This document shows positions 2,169 through 23,557 of a stretch of 64,000 nucleotides of DNA, piece by piece. Position numbers and translations under genes: made by a program. This DNA comes from Powellomyces hirtus. Lineage: Eukaryota > Chytridiomycota > Chytridiomycetes > Spizellomycetales > Powellomycetaceae. The notes below the pieces were generated by a model. It saw only the letters and a program-made list of their open reading frames with translations, searched no databases and was not told the DNA's origin. The number at the start of each line of letters is the position of its first letter. The stretch's first letter is position 1. Where the stretch lies: positions 930,001 through 994,000 of the forward strand of contig JAHLKG010000009.1 in the NCBI GenBank assembly GCA_025526995.1, written 5' to 3'.

Positions 2169-3711
2169 CTATAGTTTTGGGAACACTGCTTTCCGCTTGC
2201 CGAGATTTGCCGCAATCGCAATCTGCAGATCCTGGGTGACACAAAACACCCACAGGAAGATATTGTGTCAAACATCCGGGGGCAGGGTAGTCTGCAAGTG
2301 ATCTGCATGCCAGGGGTATTCCACTGACCTGCGTGTTCGTCATGGCCGAGTTCCAAACCCCGACATAGTTGAGCCCGTCAGCAACGGAATGGTCGCGCGA
2401 ATAGTTGAGGATGTGTTTGACGCCAAGGGTGACGACGGGAGATTTGGAGGCGATTTCGGTTGCGGTCGCGAGGGCGGCGGCCATGAGCTCGGTCCTTGGT
2501 ACGACTTTGCTAACAAGCCCGTGCTGCAGCGCTTCGGATGCAGGGAAGCGGCGGCCGGTGAATGCTAGTTCGCGCATCCAACTGTCGTTGCCCACTGTCA
2601 AGAAGAGAAAATGTGAGAAAGAGACACATAGAGACGGACAGTGCCTGTTACAAAGCCTGCGCTTTGACAGCTGATTGGTGACTCTGTTTCAGCGTCCCCT
2701 CCAGTTCCGCCATCCGACTTGCTGCCGTTTTGCAAACATCAACCACCTCCCATTCAAGGCATGGCGAAATTTCTGATCCAGTGCGCGATTCACTTTCACT
2801 GGCTCCTGCACTTCCCCTTCCAATCCATCTTTGAACATACCAACTTTGGGCATTCTTTGTAGTGTACCTGTTGACATAAATTCACAAGCGAGGTGAGCAA
2901 AGCTTGGAAGGAGGGAGGAGAAGGCACTGCTGCCAATGATGACAACAAGCATGCATGGAGTAGAATCCCACTAACCAACATCAGCGACCAATCCAATATC
3001 CACCTCCTTGATTGAAAACGAGGCATCGTTGGCAGCATAGCGGATATCGCACGCGGTCATGAGATCAATGCCTATAGGAACATTTACGAATCGTTGATTG
3101 CCCGCGACACCTCCTCCATCGTCTGTTCTAACATTGTTGTCTGACCTGCACCAATGCATGCGCCATGCACGGCTACAATCACCGCGCGTCCACATTCCTC
3201 AATCGCCGTGAACGAGGCTTGCATGGCGTTGACCAGCGAAAGAAACCCAATCGCTTTGCGTGCAGGATCCTGGGCTTCTCCGATAAGTGATCCCGTAAAG
3301 TCCTTCACTAACATGCGAAAAAGAAATCAGCAGACGTTAGAAACAACATTGATGAGTGACCGTTGTTGTTCTTTGATGGCAAAACATACAGTCTAGTCCA
3401 GCGGTGAAGTGTTTGCCCTCGCCGCCCGAGATGACCACCGCGCGGACGTTCGTGTCTTCACGGACGGTTTCAAAAACTTTACGGAACTCAACCCAAAACC
3501 TAACGAATCGCAAAAGAAGTACGAACAAGATCGTTGTGAGCTCCGTGGCCCGAGGCGTTTGCTGGGAGCTGTCCTAACCACTAGTCATAACGTACGCCTT
3601 GTTCATAGAGTTGAGGTCGCTCGGCCGGTGCAATTCAACATGCAGAACAGCGGGGGCGGGGAAGGACAGGCGCACTGTATTCAGGGCGCCGTACGCAGCT
3701 GTGTCGGACAT
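2169..3711 (-). CDS. ECH1: Delta3,5-Delta2,4-dienoyl-CoA isomerase (crotonase family)
   Basis: Seven exons can be joined by consensus GT-AG sites: 3711-3596, 3499-3390, 3307-3146, 3071-2976, 2867-2841, 2594-2329 and 2231-2169, giving 279 residues. The order of motifs follows ECH1: NSMNKAFW, AVVISGGEGKHFTAGLD, VAVHGACIGAG, TACDIRYAANDASF, KEVDIGLVADVG, then LNYSRDHSVADGLNY. The oxyanion-hole region (GKHFTAGLD, HGACIGAG) and the acidic residues of KEVDIGLVAD are present. The enzyme shifts double bonds during beta-oxidation of unsaturated fatty acids with odd-numbered double bonds. The protein ends in PKL, a plausible weak PTS1, and I see no mitochondrial presequence, so a peroxisomal location is likely (inference). 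One exon is only 27 bases long. Confidence 0.9.
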
Positions 3712-4025
3712 TATTGCAGGTATGTACACGGGATGTGGTTTGGGTTGAGCTTTGGATAAGGACAGGCGGTATTCAACCGAGCGAGAAGGTCACGCATGCG
3801 CCTCTATGCGCGTGTCATTTAATACATGTGGCGCATGTGGCGAGGGTGAATGAAGGCTCTTGCGGTATCGATATGACACCCATGAGCCATTATGCTCACC
3901 AATCAGCGCTGCTGGAGCTTTCCGATGCAAAATATTGAAAGCTGTCTCTCGATACGTTTATTTATTCCAATTACATATCAATTCAGGGATTTGCCAAGGG
4001 AAACGACAAACAAAAAAGAAGAGGA
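3712..4025. other. Intergenic between ECH1 start and GPATCH1 stop
   Basis: The 5' flank of ECH1 and 3' flank of GPATCH1 share this space. It has the T-rich or A-rich composition expected of flanks. No ORF or RNA gene is recognised. Confidence 0.4.
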
Positions 4026-7000
4026 CTACATGAAATCAGCAGCCGAAGGCCTGGCGCGTGTCCTTGTAGATGAAGACTCATTCTCGTCTGATTCATCCAG
4101 TATGTGGCGTGTTGATGATGGTGGTGGTAGTGGTTTTTCTCTTGTTGTTGGTGCTGGAGGGGAAGGCGCCCCAAACGTTTCCGCCCGACGGTCGGAGGCC
4201 GTGTAAGGACTTTCGAAGGCTAACAATGATGGCGGACGAGGGCTCCGATCTCCATCTGCATCCATGTGCCGTGAGGATCGGGAAAGCGCTTTCGGAGGCG
4301 GTACTGCATCCTGTTGTACGTGATGCTGAGGCAGCTTCACCACGGGTTTCTCCAACCACACCTCCTCCTCCTCCTCATCCGAGTACACGCGCCGTTTGTT
4401 CTTGGAGCTTGACGTATGGCGGCGTCGTTTCCTATCCCTTTCCTTTACCTTCTCCTTATCAGTTCTCTCCGCCACATCTCGTTTCCGTTTCACCCTGCGT
4501 TCGTCATCGTCACTAGTAATGTCACGCGCATCTTTTTTGTGTTTTTTTCGCTTCTTGCGGTCCTTGTCGTCTTTCCGTGATGATGATGGTAATGGCGAGG
4601 CTGTGGTTGGAGGCAAGGGAAGGGGAAGTGTTTCGTCATCGCTGTCCCGAGTGCGCTTTTTAGTGGATTCTGATCGCGATGGTAGTAGTGGGAGGGGTGG
4701 GACGGAAGGTTCATTGGAATCGACGAAAACGGACTGCTTAGATTGAGAGGGTGTGGCTACTGCTGGGATGGGTAACGATTCCTGGCGGGGCGGATTTGGC
4801 TCATTATCCAAAGCCGCACCATCAATATCCAAGGCACCTTGCAGTGATGAGCTCGGCGCAACCACAGAACTACCAGGCGGGGTTGCAGCAGCCACCTCCG
4901 CTGGTGGTTTGACGGCTTTTCCGCGGTCTTCCTTTTTTCTGAAGACGGGGCGGAATATAGGTGGAGGAAGTTTTTCGCGTGCAGGGGGTGGTAATGACGG
5001 TGATGATAGTGGTGATGCTTTGGACTGGACGAGAGGCGGGACGTGAGGTTCTGCCGCCGGTCGCTGCGATTGCGGCAAAGGTAACGGCGTTGTGTTTACA
5101 TCCTCTTCATCGCTATCACTCTCGTCCTCGTCCGAATCGGCAAAAATGGCTTTGAAAATGTCCATGGCAGGGCGCTCCGGGACCTCGTCCGGAAGTCCAT
5201 CGTCGGGCTCCTCTTCCTGTTTTATGGATGTGGTGGTGGTGTTCTTCAACTGCACCGACACCGCATCGCGGGTCAAGGTCTCCTTCGCGCCGCCATCCGT
5301 AATCTCGTCCGCCACACTATCGGGAGCAGCTTTCAGGATCCCCTGGGCCACGAGTCGATCCCGCTCGTGGAAGAGATCGTTCATGGCGCGTTTATTCAGT
5401 GCTTCCTTCTCATACCGTTTCTCTTCGTCAATGCGAGACTGTTCACGCGCATCCTCGTCATCTTCACCTCCGCCCTTCTTTTTCTGCTTAGCATACGGGT
5501 CGGCAACATTGAAGCGTTTGCAGAGCAGTTTCTCGGGGCGCCATTCGGTGCGGGTGCGGGTGAGGGCGCCGTACATGTTCATCTGGGCGGCTCCGTTCTG
5601 CACGTCGGTTTTGGCCGATGGTGCGTTGTAGTTGGTGTCGGTTGGTTGCGAAGCGGAGGTGAAACGCGAGGCCATCATGGAAGAGAGGGGTTTGAAAATT
5701 TGCGCAGCTTTGGAGAATTCGAGTTTCTCGTGCGCGATGTCTTGCCGAGTAAGATGCTGCAAAGTCCGATAAGAGATTAGATTATTTGCCTGAGAGGTCC
5801 ATCACGTTAAAGAAGCACCACCACCGACCTTGGGATTGGCGGCATATTCCGCAGCTAATCCAGCCTTCACTTCCAAGAACCTGCGATACCGCTGCTGCTT
5901 GGGCATATCGTTTCCAAAGGGCATGAACCCCTTCAAAGCCGCCAAAGCCGTATCTTTGTCCACTTTGGGTCCCGCATCTTTCGGCGCCGTCTTGTCTTCA
6001 TTGGATCCCGCCACCGCCGAATTCCCGCGAGTTCTGGCAGCCTTGTCGATGAACTCCTGCAGCCTGTCCTGCTCTTTGATGGGAAGGAACGAGAATACGG
6101 ATCGCTGAGGTGCTTTCAGCGCTTCTTCGCCAAGAATATCGCGCCGCATGTCGGCTGTCAACTGGGATTGCTCGTGCTGTTGTGCTTGGCGAGATGGGTG
6201 GATACGCGAGTCGACGTGTGAAGGTGTCGAGCCAGCGGGAAGGGGTGCCGCCGCAAAGTCATGCATGGGCACAAAGGCCGCTGGGAGTTCAGGCGGAGCA
6301 TACCTGTTCGGAATGGTTCAGCAAATGGATTGTCGTCGTCAATGTTGAAGGCATGCCATTAGATGCTCACCACTTTGGCTCCGGCATTGCGGTTTTAGCC
6401 AGGGTAAAGCCCTCCAAAGGAGGACGCCCATCATGGCAAATGCTGATCGTCAGATCGAATCCTGTGATGTGCTAGAACAGCCGCAAAGGAGTGTGAGCGC
6501 CGGCGCATGCAAGAGTGTTCGTCAACGAGTGTTACCCGATCTTTTGTCCTCAATGTACTCTGCTGACGCGAGGCTCCGCCATCAAACTTCCGTTTGAGCA
6601 TAGGTCGGTCTTCATCATCGTCGATGATCATGTCGTAACTCGCCATGCCAGATCCATACACATCCAGGTCCTCATCCTCGTCTTCGAAGACGCCAACGCC
6701 AAAGCCACCTGCACGACAAAAGGATACCGCATCAGGAATTTGCACTCGCAAGCGTCTCCAGGTCCTCGGACCGCACCTTTCCCTGGTTTCGCGGCCGATT
6801 GCGGCTCATTCTTCCCAGTTGTTTGGGACTGAGAACCTGATGTGAGGAGTAAGAGATGTCTTTATAATTTTCACGAATGAGCAGAAAGCGAAGCCGCTTA
6901 TCAGTGACAGTGAGGAGTGTGGAGAGATCCACTTGGAGAGGAAGGGGAGAGGTGTTTATGGGGCGGATGTACTCACCACGGCCGGCGAATTCTGGAGCAT

Positions 7001-14622: not shown

Positions 14623-14916
14623 AACATAGAACATGCCAGACATACCTTATCATCAATCACTGCCTGTTGCTATTTGTCGTCCACTGGAAGTTATGATAGA
14701 GAAGATATAGCATCACATTCATCGCATCCTATTCTACCCATCCTGCTATCTTTGCTACGCGCAGCACTATGACTAGGCATCCCACAATGGTCCACCCGTA
14801 TCCGGTTTCCACGTCTTCGCCACGACCACATCTCGCCGTCTAATTCGCTTCGCATGCTCTCGCGCTTTTACCCATTCCTCTGCTTCTTGCCGAGCGATCT
14901 GGTGGGCTATGCATTT

Positions 14917-15281
14917 GACGTTGAGGTCTACTTCCCAAAGACGAAGAGTGAATCTACAGCAAAATTCATTCGCTACGTTGATAGTCAAACTCACAAGAGG
15001 GTTCGACGCCTCCATTTCTATCGAGGGCGGGAATTCGTCAATCACGACCTGAAGGAGTTCTTTCACACAAAGGAATCTGGTATGAGCTTACCGCTGCAAA
15101 TTCCCCACAGTCGAACAGTGTTGCTGAACGGTTTAATCTTACCCTTTTCAACACCATACGCTCTCCCGAGCACTCATACAGCATCCCGAAACAGCTCTGG
15201 ACTGAGCTCGTGGCCCGTACAATCTGGTGTTTGCATCGATGCCCTGGCACGGCCAACGCCTTGGAAGCTAACCAATGGTGA
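14917..15281 (+). mobile_element. Ty1/copia retrotransposon integrase fossil, frameshifted
   Basis: The + strand encodes the central part of a copia-type integrase in two frames. Frame one gives VYFPKTKSES, FIRYVDSQTHKRVRRL and GREFVNHDLKEFF. From 15081 a second frame gives YELTAANSPQSN, VAERFNLTLFNTIRS and PKQLWTELVAR, and ends at a TGA at 15279. These are the family's KTKSEA, RGGEFVNKELKEF, ELTAPYSPQQNG and VAERxNRTL blocks. The change in frame and the loss of the preceding gag/protease and following RT parts mark it as dead. I see no LTRs. The 294 bases before it (14623-14916) show nothing I can name. Confidence 0.75.
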
Positions 15282-16047
15282 AGCATCTGTCTGTCATTAA
15301 TGGTATCGAGATGATGGAACTCGGCTCGCTCCAAAAACTAGAGAGAACGCCTCCTCACATCCACTCTTTAGTGTTCCTACATATACCGTTAAATATCCTC
15401 AGATAAAGCTAGAGTACACCGATTGAGCATGCGCACAGATGAAAGCTGTTCTGCTGTTGAGGCTTCAGCCTTATTTTTGTGCAAAGTTCGGTAATTCAAA
15501 CTCTTCTGCATAATCTTCCCACTTCTGTACACCTATCGACAAACAAAGAAATTGATCATTCTACCACTCTGGCAGGTAAGGAGATCATCATTCAATAATA
15601 TCGAAAGAGAGTTCCCAAAATACTTTCGCATTGTTGAACTTTGGCGGCAAGTCGTTGTTGTGCTGCTCGGTGGGTGGGGCAAATAGTTGCATCCGGGAAC
15701 TGGGGCAACCTGAGAGTCAGAGGTTGTCAACCGCGTTGTGGGTACCTGATATCAACCCACGGCATTCTTTGGCCCTCATCGGAGCAGGTCCGACAATCCA
15801 TGATTTATCAACACCAAGTAGAATACCGTAGATTAAATGATATCGATAGCGAGGGACTCTATCATGGGGTTGTGCAGGATCGGTTTTTGGGTTCTTGTGC
15901 TACGCAATTGCTTACGAACGCAGCGTGCCGAAACTCCGCTTGCCAGCGGGCTGGGACAGGTAAAAAGTTTGCACCTCGGGATTAGAACAGCGCACAATTG
16001 TTAAGACAATAGAATAGCCCACTGTAACTGACGCAGCGATTCGCAAA
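15282..16047. other. Intergenic, upstream of the redox fusion gene
   Basis: About 770 bases with no recognised coding or RNA gene. Short ORFs near 15641-15985 have no family resemblance. The stretch probably holds decayed transposon DNA plus the promoter of the following gene (inference). Confidence 0.3.
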
Positions 16048-19000
16048 ATGGTGTGGACGAGCAGGGACTTGTCATTTTCAGTCCTAGCATACATTGGTGT
16101 GTTCGCGGCGGTCGTTCAAGGTCTATGTCCTTTCTAAGGCAACGAGGGAGTTCCCAAGAACGCAGCGAATCTTTGGCAATTCCCAAGTGCGAGCCATTCT
16201 TCTCTTGGCGCTCGGTCAAGACAAAACCTTCATAAGCGGGATGTGGAGACTGTGCAAACCCTCGATGGGACGTACAACAACTTGAAGGATCCGAAATTAG
16301 ATCACACAAATGGAGCCTTTTATATCAGGCGACATCCGGCAATGTATGCACCAAATACTGAATCAGGTATGTGGAGGGTGGAAAGTATGTCTGAGAAGCA
16401 GGTTTCTCCATTATCTCATCGTCCTGATTGTGTTGTCCAGAGCCCGGTGGTACTGCCCGTCCCAATGCTCGCAAAGTTTCGACCGATGTCTTCGGCTTCA
16501 ATCCGTACACTTACACCGACAAAGCAGCCTCGGATATGCTTCCATTATGGGGCCTATATCTGCACATTGACATTACCGGTCCTTTACGGAACGAGTCGGA
16601 TCCATTCCCGATTCGCGTTCCCCAGAACGACTCTGTGTTCGACCCAACAGGGAGAAACAACGTGACGATCCCGCTTATAAGATCGCAGTATACATCAGTG
16701 AATCCGAATACCGGGAAGGTTGAGCGCACGTTTCTGAATGGCTGTTCGAGCGTCATAGACGCCAGTGGGTTGTATGGTCAGGGCCATGAAAACTATGATC
16801 CGCGCAAGGGCGAAGCTGGACTGTTGAAATCGGAGTTTTATCCTGGGCTTGGTGAAGCACCGCCACTTATCGGCGGCAAATTTGGCTTTCCCTTTGATGT
16901 AGTGAACCTCGTACCGGTAGGGAACACAAGACATGAATTTGGAAGAGAAGTACACGCTGATCAGTTGCTTGCCCATTCTAGCATCTCACTGTCCAATTTA
17001 TCCTTCTCCTCCGCGAGCATAACCGACGAGCAAGGCTTATCCTCGCTGCCAACCCCACTTGGGACGATGAACAGATCTTTCAGAAAGCCCGTAGAATGGT
17101 CATCGCGTTGGTACAACGCATCACCATGAACTACTACTTTTCCATGCGTCTCGGGAAAGCACCACCTCCCTATACGGGCTACGATCCCACCGTCAACCTC
17201 GGCATCGATCTCGCCTTCAATATCGTTGGGTTACGATACGGTCACAGCACCATCAACTCGATGATATACCGCATGGATGAAAAGGGCCACCCACATCGCA
17301 AGGGGCATTTAATTTTGGAAGAAGTGTTTTTGGAGAACAACGTCGCGACATTACTTGAAGACGGAATCGAGTCCATCATTCGCGGGTTTTCTACCCAGCC
17401 CGAGCAGAAAGCGGATGCGCGTTACGTGCCGGTTGTAAGAGAAAGCATGCCGCTTGCTACGCTCCCTGAAAGATACGATCTCGTCGCCATCAGCATTCAA
17501 AGGTAAGAGCCCGGTCAACGAAACACCAAAGCCGGATGGAGGCACAATGGCACATCAGCAGCACTCTAACCTTGTTGCTCTGGATCTGTTAAGAGGACGC
17601 GAAGTAGGCCTAGCAGACTATAACACCCTACGGAAAGCGTACAACCTGACGGCTGTCACCAGCTGGAGTGAAATCTCGAGCGACATGAAGGTCATAAATG
17701 CATGGCCAAACTGTATCCGGACATGAACAATGTCGATGCGTATGTTGGTAAAGACCCTGCTCATTTCCTTGGTGGCCTTGGACATGTTGAATACTAGATT
17801 GAATCACCATGTCCCCCTATATTTCACTTTCCCAGGTGCCATCGTAGAAAATCAGGAAAATGGTTCCTCGCTGGGCCCATTATCGACGGCAATCTTGGAA
17901 GAGCAGCTGCTCCGACTCCGCAACGGCGACCGCTTCTGGTACGAGAACCCGGGGATTCTGACATCCGAAGAGATGCTTGAAATCAAAATGGATGGGAACT
18001 GGGGTATGCTGGTGAAGCACAACACCAACATTACGGTGTTCCCCGAGAATCCATTTGCGATCAGCATTCCAGACTATACACTCGGTGCTGCCGAGTTGGA
18101 GGACACTGCTTCTGCCTGAGAAGGCAACTCGGTCACGATACCGGATATTATGAAGCTGTCGTGGGAAATTGTGGATGCCAATATCCGCTTCGTGGTGGAG
18201 ACAAACAGCGAGCGATGGGTCGGCTTTGGCTTTGGCAAGGATATGTTGCCAGCTGATATCATGTTGTTCAGACACGACTCTGAGAGCGGTGATTGGATTT
18301 GTCAGGACTCGTATAGGTATAAATACTGTGCGTGAAATATCGCACACCAAGCCCGCACGCATGTCCTAAACATTTAGTGTGGGGAAATCTGTCTTTTCTG
18401 CGCATCAGCAAGGACCTCGCGGTACCTCAGCCAGACACTGCATACGGAGGCACCAACGACGCACAGTCCTTCTCTGTGCTGACTTCCAAAACCTACACGC
18501 ACAGCTTCACAGTAACACGGGCGAAGAACACAGGGGACAGTCATGACGTTGCAATCACCGATATGGACATGCCGATGATTTTTGCCGCTGGCTCATCCAT
18601 CACTCCGGGCTATCACGGCGCGCTGAGCCGGGCGCATGCGGTCGTCAATTTTGTCACAGGGGCGGTGACGGTGCCTGATTCTACAACCAAACGCTTGTTC
18701 AAACTGAATATCTTTCACGGGTAAGCCCCTGCCTGGGTTGAGTGTTGTAAAACCGACTACCATTGACTCGGTCTGGTTTAGTGTGACAATGTATGCTGGG
18801 TTCGGTTTTATTTATCCAGGTGAGGCATTCTCATGAACGTTCAAGAAATCATTGATCGGCCACTGACTGCCATTACAACTCTGCAGTTGGTATTTATATT
18901 GCGCGCTACTGGAAAAACGGAGGGAGCTGGGTTGCGTACCACGCAGTGCTAATGACTGCTGTGACTACCGAGGTGAGCGGCGACTGGATCTGTCGTTCGG

Positions 19001-21460
19001 GAGCGCCTCGTCCCAAATACCGAACCCCCTTTGTCATTTCTAGATCCTATTTGCAGCCGTCCTGGGCGTTGTCGGGAGTCTTGGCCACATCGGGGCACCG
19101 CACACTCGATTCTTGGACTTTCCTTGACCTGTTTGGTTATAATTGTGACTTGGCTGGGAAGGTTCAGTAGCAACTGGGACACCCCCTTGACCATCAAGTA
19201 TAGTCGCTACATACGCCTGTGCCACTGGACGCTTGGCTACTCCGCATATTTCATTGGCCTTTTCCAGGGGTATCTTGGGGTGACCGATATTTCACGCGGG
19301 ACTACAGTGGGATGTAAGCGTTTTGCGTTCTGTTTGTTCGGATGTCGTGGCTGTATGTTGACACATGCATTTACTTTCATGCTTTATCAGGGCTTCGATG
19401 GCTCTACATCCTGAGCGTAGCCGTGACCCCCTTAACCCTACTGCTCCTTGCTTGGCGAAACAACCACCAGGCAAAAGTAAACGAAGCAAACGGCGATAAC
19501 AGCAAAAGCACGTGCAAACAGAACGACACACTGCCCAAATTCGACTGGCATGAGGTTCACGACCGGGTCGAGGCGGGAGAAAAACTGTTCGTCGTCAAAA
19601 ACATCGTTTGTGCGTATCCCCTGCTGATGGCCTTCGACTTGTCTGCAAGAGACCTTTGCGTAATTTTGATAAATCTTGACTCTGTTTAGATGATGCGACG
19701 CCATTTCTCCAGAAACACCCTGGAGGAAGCAAACTTCTGAGCAACGTAGTGGGATTGGACGCAACGTACGTCTTCTACGGAAGGAGGCCGGTCAAGGGCG
19801 CAAAAGGAGGCAAACGCAAAGAAAACGAAGCGGCAAGTCCCATCTATCACGCGCATTCCCGACTGGCAATGTCCTTGCTGTTAAAACTCGCAGTCGCAGT
19901 GCTGGTCAGCGTCCGAAACGACTTTAACGACAACGACGACACAGATGCAGAAGAGGTCGACACAAACAACATTCTGAAAAGCAGCGTCATGCTCGACCAC
20001 TCGGATGTTGAGGCCTCTGCAGGGGCGAAAGGGATAGGGCAGCAGCTGCGTGGAATCTCGCGCGACCATCTTCAAAAAACGTCATTTAAACCGCGGACCG
20101 TCACAACTGCCCTCTCCGAGCTCGCATTTCGAGAGTACGAGGTCGCGACGCGGACGTGCGCCTCATCCACCGAGTCGCGTCGTCCTACTTTCAAAATCTC
20201 GTTTGACTTGCATCAAGCAGCAAACCTTGGCGATACGAGTCGTGCGCAACCAGTTGGCCGCAAGACTAACCTTGCGCAACTCGATATGTCGCCAGCGGAA
20301 GTTTTCATCGTTCCTGGGCAATGCGTGATTGTCCAGTACATCACTGATCAGGGGGAAGTCGTCACGCGGCAATACACTCCCTACAAATCACGCAATGTTG
20401 GCACCATCGACCTATACATTAAAATGACGGACGGGATGATGACGCGACATTTGAGAGAATGCAAAAGCCTTCGAACTCGAGGTCCCATCCAGCACGCACC
20501 CGATGCACTGAATCCCGCACGAAGAAACGGATGCTGGGGCTCGATTGGAATGATAGCCGGCGGATCAGGACTGACGCCTATGCTTTTGATCATAGACTAC
20601 CATCTCCGTTTCGCACCGCGAGGACCCGGAAGCGTGCGGCCAAACCTCAGTATGGCGCTGTTGAACATCAACCACTCGGACGTGGACGTGTTTGCCCAGG
20701 AGGACTTGAAGATTGCAGAACAGCGCTCGCAAGGCACGTTGACGATAACGAATCTGTATCACAATCTGGTTGGGCCAGGAACCTACAAGGGCCAAGTAGG
20801 CCGCGTCACCGCCGATCTGCTGAAAAAGGTTCTCCCGTCCAGCTCGACCACCGCAGCCTCCGGACCTGCCGCCACGGCTCTGAGCCCGACGATGGTGGGG
20901 GACAAGATCACCAGAATTCAGTCGCTGCAGATGGCAGCCGGTAGCGACGGTGGGAAGGGTATGGGCAGGAAACGCACCAGCGGGAGCGGCAGCGGCACAA
21001 GTGAAATGGGGTTCGCGGCGTCGCACAGGAGCAGCGTTGCATTGTTGCCAAAGACGCAGCAGCAGTCGCCAGCCGCGCAACGCAATATGGGTTACAGCGA
21101 GGTGAATCAGAACGTGAGTAAAGCATTTATTGACAGCCCGCTAGTCTCTGGAGCGAGCAGCCCCGGATCGTCTTCACCCGCCCCAAAGCACAATTACGCA
21201 CGTCGCGCCTTCGAGAGATTGTTGCCCGAAACTGGGAGCGAGACGGAAGACAGTTCGGACGATAACAATGAACCAGCTAAGAAAGCCACTGCGATTTTTG
21301 TTTGTGGGTGAGTTGCATCAGCTTTGCCCCGAGATCCCATATACAAAGTACATATAAATCTAACACACTAATTCATTTTAGCCCGCCTCCAATGCAAGCC
21401 GCAGTCCTTGAACTACTGCTATCCCTTAATTACGCCCCTGAGTCTATCATCATTCTGTAA
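16048..21460 (+). CDS. Haem peroxidase-DOMON-cytochrome b561-cytochrome b5-b5 reductase fusion
   Basis: Inferred exons are 16048-16120, 16166-16366, 16441-16949, 16982-17502, 17594-17747, 17836-18084, 18124-18316, 18409-18720, 18782-18819, 18887-18972, 19044-19313, 19391-19609, 19690-21307 and 21382-21460, about 1,507 residues. Residues 1-24 form a signal peptide. To ~570: animal-type haem peroxidase (distal LWGLYLHIDITGP, LLLREHNRRA, proximal GLRYGHS, IQRGREVGL, RNGDRFWYEN). ~570-735: DOMON (KLSWEI, WVGFGFGKDM, ADIMLF). ~735-900: b561-like core with histidines in FHGVTMY, YHAVLM, AHSILGL and CHWTLGYS. ~915-975: cytochrome b5 (KHPGG). ~1090-1507: FAD/NAD module (TRQYTPYKS, GMIAGGSGLTPM, VCGPPPM). 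As given, exons 5 and 11 each lack one base; introns of 32 and 39 bases are needed, the second removing an in-frame TGA (18117). Either assembly errors or a damaged allele. Confidence 0.78.
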
Positions 21461-22311: not shown

Positions 22312-23557
22312 ATGTTTTCTCGCAACACACTGTTCCGTCGAACCGTCTCTATAAAGCTGAACTGCGGCATCGGCGTTGCAAGAGCTCTACTGACAACAAC
22401 AGTATTGCCTCGAGTTGCGCCTTGTCATCGCGTTTCATTGCAGACGCGTCCCCAACAGCAGAGCAACATGAGCATTACGAATACTACGTCTTCGACAGGC
22501 ATCTCGCCCTTAGAGAAGGTGGCCGAGGATATATGGCTCAGTAAAGCTTCTAAACATGTACTGCCAAAGATCTCTCCTTCCATCGCGCTAGTCATCATCT
22601 TCGGTGAGTACCCTTCCCCCCCCCCCCCCCCCCCGTTACTCCAGTATTTCAAGTCGTCGTATATGCTCACAGAAGACGATCCCTGCTTTCTGTTCTGGTT
22701 CCAGGCTGGATGGGTGGTGACGTACGGCACCTTCGGAAGTATGCTGAGTTTTACGAGGAAAAAAATGTGGATGTGCTGATTGTGGGGTCGCGCGGGAAAC
22801 ACTTTTTCCAACCACCAAAGGCCGTTTACGAGCAGTTGGCACCAGTTGCGTCTATATTAGCTGAGCATGGAGTCGTCGAAAGCAGAACTGGTCCCTCGAA
22901 CTCGGCTGGGGTTGTGAAGCAACGCGCAGCCTTCGTTCACGTTTTTTCTGATGGAGGGTCGAGAATGCTCAAGTATTCTACAGACATGTTGCGCGACGTT
23001 CATGGTCAACGCCTCAGGACAGCAGGGATTGTGTTCGGTATGTTTGTGTCTGTCTTTTACCTGGTTACCCTATGGGCGCCTGTTGCTAACATCTATCTTT
23101 TGGTTGCTTGCCAGATTCCTGTCCCGGTCGGTTTACAGTTGCTACGGCCGTACGAGCTTTCACAGCATCTATTCACAGCAAGATTGCACGCCCAATTGCC
23201 GTGGGCTTGCTGTTCATGTTCTTTTCTGCGGCACGTCTGTTTCATATTGTCACCTTCACCCCTGACAGACACGATGCGACCAGGAAAGCGCTGCTGGAAT
23301 CCAATCGATTCGGGGTCCAAGAGCAGAAGGAACATCCGCCTCCGCGACATTACCACTATTCGGAAAGCGACCAGCTGATCACTTTTGACGCAGTGGAACA
23401 ACATGCCAGAGATGCCAGTATCCTCGGCGCAGATGTAACAACCAAGAAATGGAACAACACGCCTCACGTGCGGCACATGCAGGCAGACCCGGATGCGTAT
23501 TGGCATGATGTTGAGAAAGTTCTCAACAAAGGTACCGAATATGTCACCAAGTCCTAG
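22312..23557 (+). CDS. TMEM53/DUF829 (PaxU-like) alpha/beta-hydrolase-fold protein
   Basis: Three exons (22312-22603, 22705-23037, 23115-23557) give about 355 residues. Family motifs are present in order: FGWMGGDVRHLRKY, then VHVFSDGGSRML (the serine elbow-like region), VFDSCPG, a hydrophobic segment VGLLFMFFSAARLF, and near the end HVRHMQADPDAYW with its His. TMEM53-type proteins are hydrolase-fold membrane proteins; fungal PaxU relatives occur in indole-diterpene clusters, but no such cluster is seen here. The start is ambiguous: ATG 22312 gives an Arg-rich, acid-poor leader like a mitochondrial presequence, while ATG 22468 (MSITNTT) gives a shorter protein. Intron 1 begins with a normal donor and then 19 consecutive C. 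Confidence 0.82.
22616..22634 (+). repeat. 19-base C homopolymer in intron 1 of the TMEM53-like gene
   Basis: A run of 19 C starts 12 bases after the donor GTGAGT of intron 1. It resembles the longer C-run at 28258-28280, which also follows a donor-like GTAAGC. Confidence 0.9.

Follow-up and report, generated by a model that had tools for sequence, protein, structure and literature searches.

DUOX is a single chain with a secreted-side N-terminal haem-peroxidase domain, a membrane haem core and a cytosolic reductase that binds flavin adenine dinucleotide (FAD) and nicotinamide adenine dinucleotide (NAD). Other members of the PF03098 peroxidase-cyclooxygenase superfamily, such as Dictyostelium PoxA (6erc), 8s6c, lactoperoxidase and myeloperoxidase, are soluble or secreted and are not known to have an electron wire. 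The plant CYBDOM proteins (HYP1/CRR) have a DOMON domain with a Met-His pair beside a cytochrome b561 core and transport electrons outward. In the excerpted text of PMC10784544, the Met-His pair of HYP1 is modelled as haem ligands, and electrons from cytosolic ascorbate pass to ferric and cupric ions outside. Here we describe a gene of Powellomyces hirtus, a chytrid of the Spizellomycetales (genome of 29.26 Mb in 60 contigs), that encodes, in order, a peroxidase domain, DOMON, b561, cytochrome b5 and an FAD/NAD reductase. It lies at 16,048-21,460 on the plus strand of the window, the whole stretch of 64,000 nucleotides (nt) that was analysed (bases 930,001-994,000 of contig C9).

Our preferred reading, to which we give a probability of about 0.6, is that proteins of this family use NAD(P)H to supply electrons across the membrane to an extracellular haem domain, and that the window gene is a decaying member of one of two classes, class B.

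We found no description of the order peroxidase-DOMON-b561-b5-reductase among the matches listed from the open-access literature (titles and the starts of abstracts). The closest text, in excerpts of PMC3591440, attributes DOMON to some ferric reductases and peroxidase to DUOX, never the two together. In excerpts of PMC8027222, peroxidase and DOMON belong to separate genes. Fungal linoleate diol synthases are likewise fusions of a PF03098 domain to a second redox module, but the partner is a P450, not a membrane wire; the excerpted text on them (PMC4420034) has no match to DOMON, cytochrome b5 or chytrid. An earlier interpretation of the window from its letters alone (the sequence-only reading) knew of no described protein with this order, which agrees with the listed matches, and the proteins are public under generic names such as 'heme peroxidase' or 'hypothetical protein'. 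As far as searched, the family combines known modules in an undescribed order, and it includes a derived class with a changed active site.

The fusion gene and its relatives

The window gene starts with an ATG at 16048 and ends with a stop codon finishing at 21460. Our model has 12 exons (4573 bases in total) and 11 introns of 61-92 nt, every one GT-AG. Exon 1 (16048-16366) encodes a signal-peptide-like start and the first peroxidase block, VQTLDGTYNN. The peroxidase domain continues through exon 2 (16441-16916; Pfam An_peroxidase, 5.9e-14) and exon 3 (16982-17502), which holds the peroxidase core, REHN and the proximal His in LRYGHST (An_peroxidase, 7.4e-39 with Pfam and 2e-37 in the genome scan). 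Exon 4 (17594-17747) runs from GREVGLADYN to LYPDMNNVDAY, and exon 5 (17836-18316) contains both the end of the peroxidase (RNGDRFWYEN) and the first half of DOMON (2.8e-9). Exon 6 (18409-18720) completes DOMON and contains its presumed haem-ligand His (GYHGAL). Searched alone, this second half (18407-18721) gave no Pfam DOMON match, despite 72% identity to a paralog on contig C5.

Exons 7-9 (18782-18819, 18887-18972 and 19044-19313) encode the b561 membrane core, and exon 10 (19391-19609) the last membrane helix and the start of cytochrome b5. Exon 11 (19690-21307; 538 codons, open throughout) encodes cytochrome b5 (HPGG) and the FAD (RQYTP) and NAD (GGSGLTPM) parts of the reductase, and exon 12 (21382-21460) the CGPPPM end and the stop. 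The reductase domains were matched in exon 11 itself (FAD_binding_6, 1.9e-7; NAD_binding_1, 6.9e-6). Cyt-b5 (1.3e-4; 22.4 bits, cut-off 23.7) and Cytochrom_B561 (2.5e-4; 21.8 bits, cut-off 23) scored just below their Pfam cut-offs, and the four b561 histidines are present by alignment. These matches and the exon model confirm the modules, their order, the strand, the gene ends and the four histidines given by the sequence-only reading. Its spliced gene stands as to modules and GT-AG splice sites; it overlooked that the reading frame is broken at four places.

PF03098 matches occur in at least five loci of the P. hirtus genome, and the fusion occurs at four of them, the window (C9) and the contigs C5, C16 and C6. 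The C5 paralog (at 1.42 Mb; 13 exons, 1500 amino acids) and the C16 paralog (at 0.14 Mb; 16 exons, 1411 amino acids) have no stop in their spliced models. The model of C6 (at 0.79 Mb), which lacks its first exon, is also free of stops and is 100% identical to a deposited P. hirtus protein of 1421 amino acids (P0028; related proteins are denoted here by P numbers). The fifth locus, on C21, was rejected as a further fusion; it has an alpha-dioxygenase-like domain by eye and no DOMON match there. This PF03098 gene (L010; C21:609-611k) carries the motif WIQFQVHDW.

The evidence supports one polypeptide rather than two genes, because a single exon spans the join of peroxidase and DOMON in C5 and C16 and because relatives are single proteins. 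The exon of C5 that crosses the join encodes DOMON as well as the peroxidase end, and that of C16 takes in the peroxidase end and only the first part of DOMON; the two domains of C6 are separated by an intron. The window copy does have a TGA at 18117, as would be expected of two adjoining genes, one for the peroxidase and one for DOMON-b561-b5-reductase, divided near that position. However, the join lies within one exon in both paralogs, fusions are single proteins across phyla, and there is no signal-peptide-like start right after 18,117, by eye. We consider two genes highly improbable and reject them for the family. The sequence-only reading had proposed a single fusion and had allowed that its relatives might always be two genes; the fusion held up, and relatives in several phyla contradict the second case.

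We found the same architecture in other proteomes, where the sequence-only reading had suggested looking. By precomputed Pfam annotation, An_peroxidase and DOMON occur together in 17 of 27 matches to the C5 protein, in 30 of the best 120 of 2015 matches to the C6 protein, and in 7 of 11 matches to the wire half of C6. Each of the full-length searches took its words from residues 1-500 and scored about 8000 candidates, so a missing entry says little. According to source names, fusions are present in the chytrids Geranomyces, Thoreauomyces, Spizellomyces, Borealophlyctis, Obelidium, Chytriomyces, Cladochytrium, Boothiomyces, Polychytrium and others; in the Blastocladiomycota Sorochytrium, Paraphysoderma and Allomyces; and in the glomeromycete Entrophospora, the green alga Cymbomonas, the brown alga Discosporangium and the xanthophyte Tribonema. 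The taxonomic group was checked for Polychytrium and for the seven genera from Sorochytrium to Tribonema; the genera from Geranomyces to Boothiomyces we take to be chytrids. P0065, by its name an assembled transcript, encodes 1341 amino acids with all modules. P0068, P0071 and P0082 are shorter, and their Pfam listing has peroxidase, DOMON and b561 alone. Tribonema minus has three related proteins (P0149, P0150 and P0151), one of them without a listed peroxidase, and gain or loss of the fusion may be traceable there.

Presumed haem ligands and likeness to DUOX and CYBDOM

The presumed haem ligands of the wire are highly conserved. In an alignment of 34 family members, from which the most divergent fusions were left out, the proximal His, the DOMON Met, the DOMON His and two of the b561 His were present in 34/34; the other two b561 His were present in 33/33 and 32/32, and the b5 pair in 32/33 and 28/29. 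A fuller set of 57 proteins included C5 and C16, as well as P0042, P0067, P0081, P0114 and P0145, which have no listed DOMON, and P0149, which has no listed peroxidase. Counting rows with letters, the DOMON Met was present in 55/55 and the DOMON His in 56/56, the four b561 His in 56/56, 54/54, 56/56 and 54/55, and the b5 pair in 55/56 and 51/52. The proximal His was present in 53/56.

Like CYBDOM proteins, the family has a Met-His pair in DOMON and, after DOMON, a b561 core that contains four His. We infer that the Met-His pair is the same pair as the modelled haem ligands of HYP1. We name the b561 core by its four His and by relatives that match the Pfam family (P0019 above the cut-off; listed for P0014, P0048 and others). 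Whereas the donor of HYP1 is cytosolic ascorbate (excerpts of PMC10784544), the chytrid proteins have a fused b5-FAD-NAD reductase and, in addition, a peroxidase-type domain that would be outside. Five long helices follow DOMON in the AlphaFold model of P0071. With DOMON outside and five helices between, the b5-reductase end would be inside, in keeping with the topology that the sequence-only reading proposed (peroxidase and DOMON extracellular, b5 and reductase cytosolic).

The fusions resemble DUOX in layout, and in both the peroxidase domain may be degenerate. They contain an N-terminal PF03098 domain, as DUOX does. The lists of similar folds were taken up by peroxidases and bear on this domain, not on DOMON or b561. 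However, DUOX (P0024) has EF hands and a NOX/ferric-reductase core and, unlike the fusions, no DOMON, b561 or b5. Pfam scans of P0001, P0028, P0019 and P0065 (E 0.01) found DOMON, Cyt-b5, FAD_binding_6 and NAD_binding_1, with NAD_binding_6 below the cut-off in P0028 and P0065. The same four scans found no EF-hand family, and no NOX/ferric-reductase core (PF01794) with matching FAD and NAD domains above the cut-off.

A quick tree of peroxidase domains placed its two DUOX rows, one of them partial, outside the fusions. Branch support in this tree was by the Shimodaira-Hasegawa-like approximate likelihood ratio test (SH-aLRT) only. P0137, which has no DOMON in its Pfam list, sits inside the fusion group (group support 88), and P0145 is labelled class A in the tree but shows the class B motif in the alignment. 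Motifs had pointed to DUOX as the closest peroxidase; this was rejected, as neither the tree nor the PDB ranking bore it out (8s6c, 2e-77; PoxA, 6.4e-53; DUOX1, 6e-45). Because the DUOX rows fall outside the fusions, the likeness to DUOX is probably convergent. The sequence-only reading had described a DUOX-like layout built from other parts, and the quick tree is in keeping with this.

Peroxidase-less wires occur in the same genome, at C1:345k and C5:483k, so that, by analogy, a peroxidase joined to such a wire parallels DUOX, in which the peroxidase is joined to NOX. The C1:345k gene (L020:2817-5741, minus strand) encodes 975 amino acids in one open frame, with a signal-like start, DOMON, b561, b5 and an FAD domain; its Pfam DOMON and b5 scores are just below their cut-offs. 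An SH3 domain (Pfam 2.9e-8, residues 793-839) separates the FAD domain from the C-terminal part, which has a CGPPG end, and recalls SH3 regulation of NOX. The C5:483k gene (L021, about 3561-6985) has introns, encodes DOMON-b561-reductase without a peroxidase, and contains an SH3-like stretch by eye. A further gene (L022:3607-4960; C18:432k) encodes DOMON-b561 with no reductase by eye.

Two classes of peroxidase domain and damage to the window copy

We found two classes of peroxidase domain on the same wire. Class A keeps the full peroxidase site; the distal Gln and His, the catalytic Arg and the proximal His are all present in C6/P0028, the one intact class A gene of the P. hirtus genome. In class B, the class of the window gene and of C5, the distal Gln is found in 0/19 and the catalytic Arg in 0/18, and the proximal His in 19/19. 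By definition of the class, the distal His is absent (0/19) and a His is shifted; this new His is one residue earlier than the distal His. The proximal Asn is kept in 15/19 and the Asp/Glu of the calcium site in 19/19. In exon 2 of the window copy the distal motif is WGLYLHIDIT (normally WGQFxDHDxT), and the distal side of class B is changed relative to PoxA, 8s6c, lactoperoxidase and myeloperoxidase. The sequence-only reading had put an ordinary peroxidase outside, which is not supported for the window copy, whose class lacks the distal His, Gln and Arg. Because the Arg and the distal His are absent, ordinary heterolysis of H2O2 appears unlikely in class B.

In the class A gene a microexon of 19 nt (L011:2018-2036) encodes catalytic DLRANE, the GDxRxxE block. 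Without this microexon the catalytic Arg would be missing, as it is in class B. The window copy lacks the motif and has a 65-nt intron (16917-16981) at the corresponding site. A 32-nt 'intron' that would preserve GNTRHE as a GDxR motif was rejected; C5 has a stop there, and the window copy has the same donor as C5 and C16, CCG/GTAGG. We also rejected a microexon hidden in class B. The introns there are 82, 64 and 65 nt in this genome, too short for two introns of at least 56 nt plus an exon.

Judged from its sequence, the window copy belongs to class B and is probably in decay. In this assembly four lesions interrupt the open reading frame across its modelled exons. An in-frame TAA (16135-16137) in exon 1 replaces, in alignment with C5, the D of GCPFDNGA, and an in-frame TGA (18117-18119) lies in the linker encoded by exon 5. 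Exon 4 has 154 nt, compared to 161 in C5 and 158 in C16 (both 2 mod 3), and the frame is lost near 17,700. Exon 9 has 270 nt, compared to 268 in both paralogs, which breaks the frame within b561, near 19,100. Two stops and two frameshifts do not fit the working gene that the sequence-only reading implied.

The window copy might nevertheless be a working gene, if the stops and frameshifts are assembly errors or strain alleles or are spliced out. Its splice sites and protein blocks have been well preserved, and the terminal branch of its open stretches is short (0.014, from a row that excludes the damaged places). We searched set ranges for introns that would remove each lesion, with the 49 introns predicted in the three intact paralogs (56-103 nt, GT-AG) as the yardstick; one of these predicted lengths (78, with a misplaced acceptor at C6 exon 8) is off, and the minimum stays 56. 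In the ranges searched, several GT-AG introns of at least 56 nt, of ordinary length (e.g., 16097-16165), could skip the TAA, and GC-AG introns of 66-69 nt with their end at 18155 could skip the TGA. However, no paralog intron is GC-AG, and the conserved FPENPF block would be cut by the GT-AG introns that skip the TGA. The GT-AG introns that bypass the exon 4 shift all cut conserved blocks, and no GT-AG intron of at least 56 nt gets round the exon 9 shift in these ranges. The four lesions fall within 4573 exon bases, against none in the models of the three paralogs. An ortholog gene model from P. hirtus CBS80983 (P0012, 869 amino acids) omits stretches that hold all four lesion sites. We therefore regard a working gene as unlikely. 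The window copy is 63% identical to C5 (1025 shared positions) and 84% identical to P0012 (703 positions). The decay, if real, looks recent, because the remainder of the gene is well preserved.

Just upstream of the fusion gene, an open stretch at 14773-15300 resembles a retroelement integrase remnant by eye, with no match in Pfam. A DUF829 (TMEM53-like) gene (Pfam 5.4e-24) adjoins the fusion gene at 22707-23554.

Proposed electron supply to an outside haem domain

In the proposed mechanism, one chain would comprise a secreted N-terminal haem-peroxidase-type domain, DOMON, a five-helix b561 core and a cytosolic b5-FAD-NAD reductase. Electrons would pass from NAD(P)H to FAD, to the b5 haem, to two b561 haems, to the DOMON haem and then to the outside peroxidase-type iron. 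In class A the wire may reduce oxidised intermediates of the peroxidase, making an extracellular peroxidase fuelled by NAD(P)H. Because class B has lost the residues that split H2O2 while keeping the proximal His and the wire, its domain would most likely be an electron-driven haem site of other chemistry (reduction of O2 or metals) or a relay.

Alternatively, the wire could be a DUOX-like oxidase that makes superoxide or H2O2 outside, with the class A peroxidase using it to cross-link wall or cuticle and no electrons entering the peroxidase haem. However, P. hirtus has separate genes at C1:868k and C4:304k that we take, from their motifs, to be NOX-like, and a DOMON step between the membrane and the peroxidase speaks for electron delivery. 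The wire is b561-b5 and not a NOX core, and the activity described for CYBDOM is ferric and cupric reduction (excerpts of PMC10784544). We think that such an oxidase is improbable.

The outside domain might also be non-catalytic, above all in class B. The protein would then be a ferric or cupric reductase of the CYBDOM kind, with a peroxidase-like domain for folding, binding or regulation. This would fit the absence of Gln, distal His and Arg from class B and the peroxidase-less wire at C1:345k. On the other hand, class A retains the full peroxidase site, and the proximal His, proximal Asn and calcium-site Asp/Glu that class B keeps go beyond the needs of a bare scaffold. We regard a non-catalytic domain as doubtful, though a more serious contender than the oxidase.

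Some observations weigh against our preferred reading. Entrophospora P0019, Allomyces P0146 and P0147, and Tribonema P0151 fit neither class, and P0146, P0147 and P0151, the three exceptions in the 57-protein set, differ in the column of the proximal His. P0001 and P0028 have no Pfam b561 match at E 0.01, and the P. hirtus fusions are described here from gene sequence and spliced models.

A bolder and more tentative version of our preferred reading, possible but not favoured, concerns class B. It may represent a new type of extracellular haem enzyme in which the H2O2 site has been dismantled (GDxRxxE, Gln and distal His lost) and rebuilt around the new His, and which, driven by cytosolic NAD(P)H via flavin and four haems instead of by external H2O2, would activate or reduce O2, metals or organics at the cell surface of zoosporic fungi. 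If this is true, class B would be the convergent equivalent of DUOX and of the pair of cellobiose dehydrogenase and lytic polysaccharide monooxygenase (CDH-LPMO).

The family is spread across zoosporic fungi, and the database entries seen carry only generic names. If electron supply to the outside domain is correct, an extracellular peroxidase-type haem would have been wired to cytosolic NAD(P)H at least twice from different parts, NOX in animals and DOMON-b561-b5 here. With a complete site in class A and a changed site in class B, on the same wire and in one genome, P. hirtus would offer a natural experiment on whether the outside domain is a terminal enzyme or a relay.

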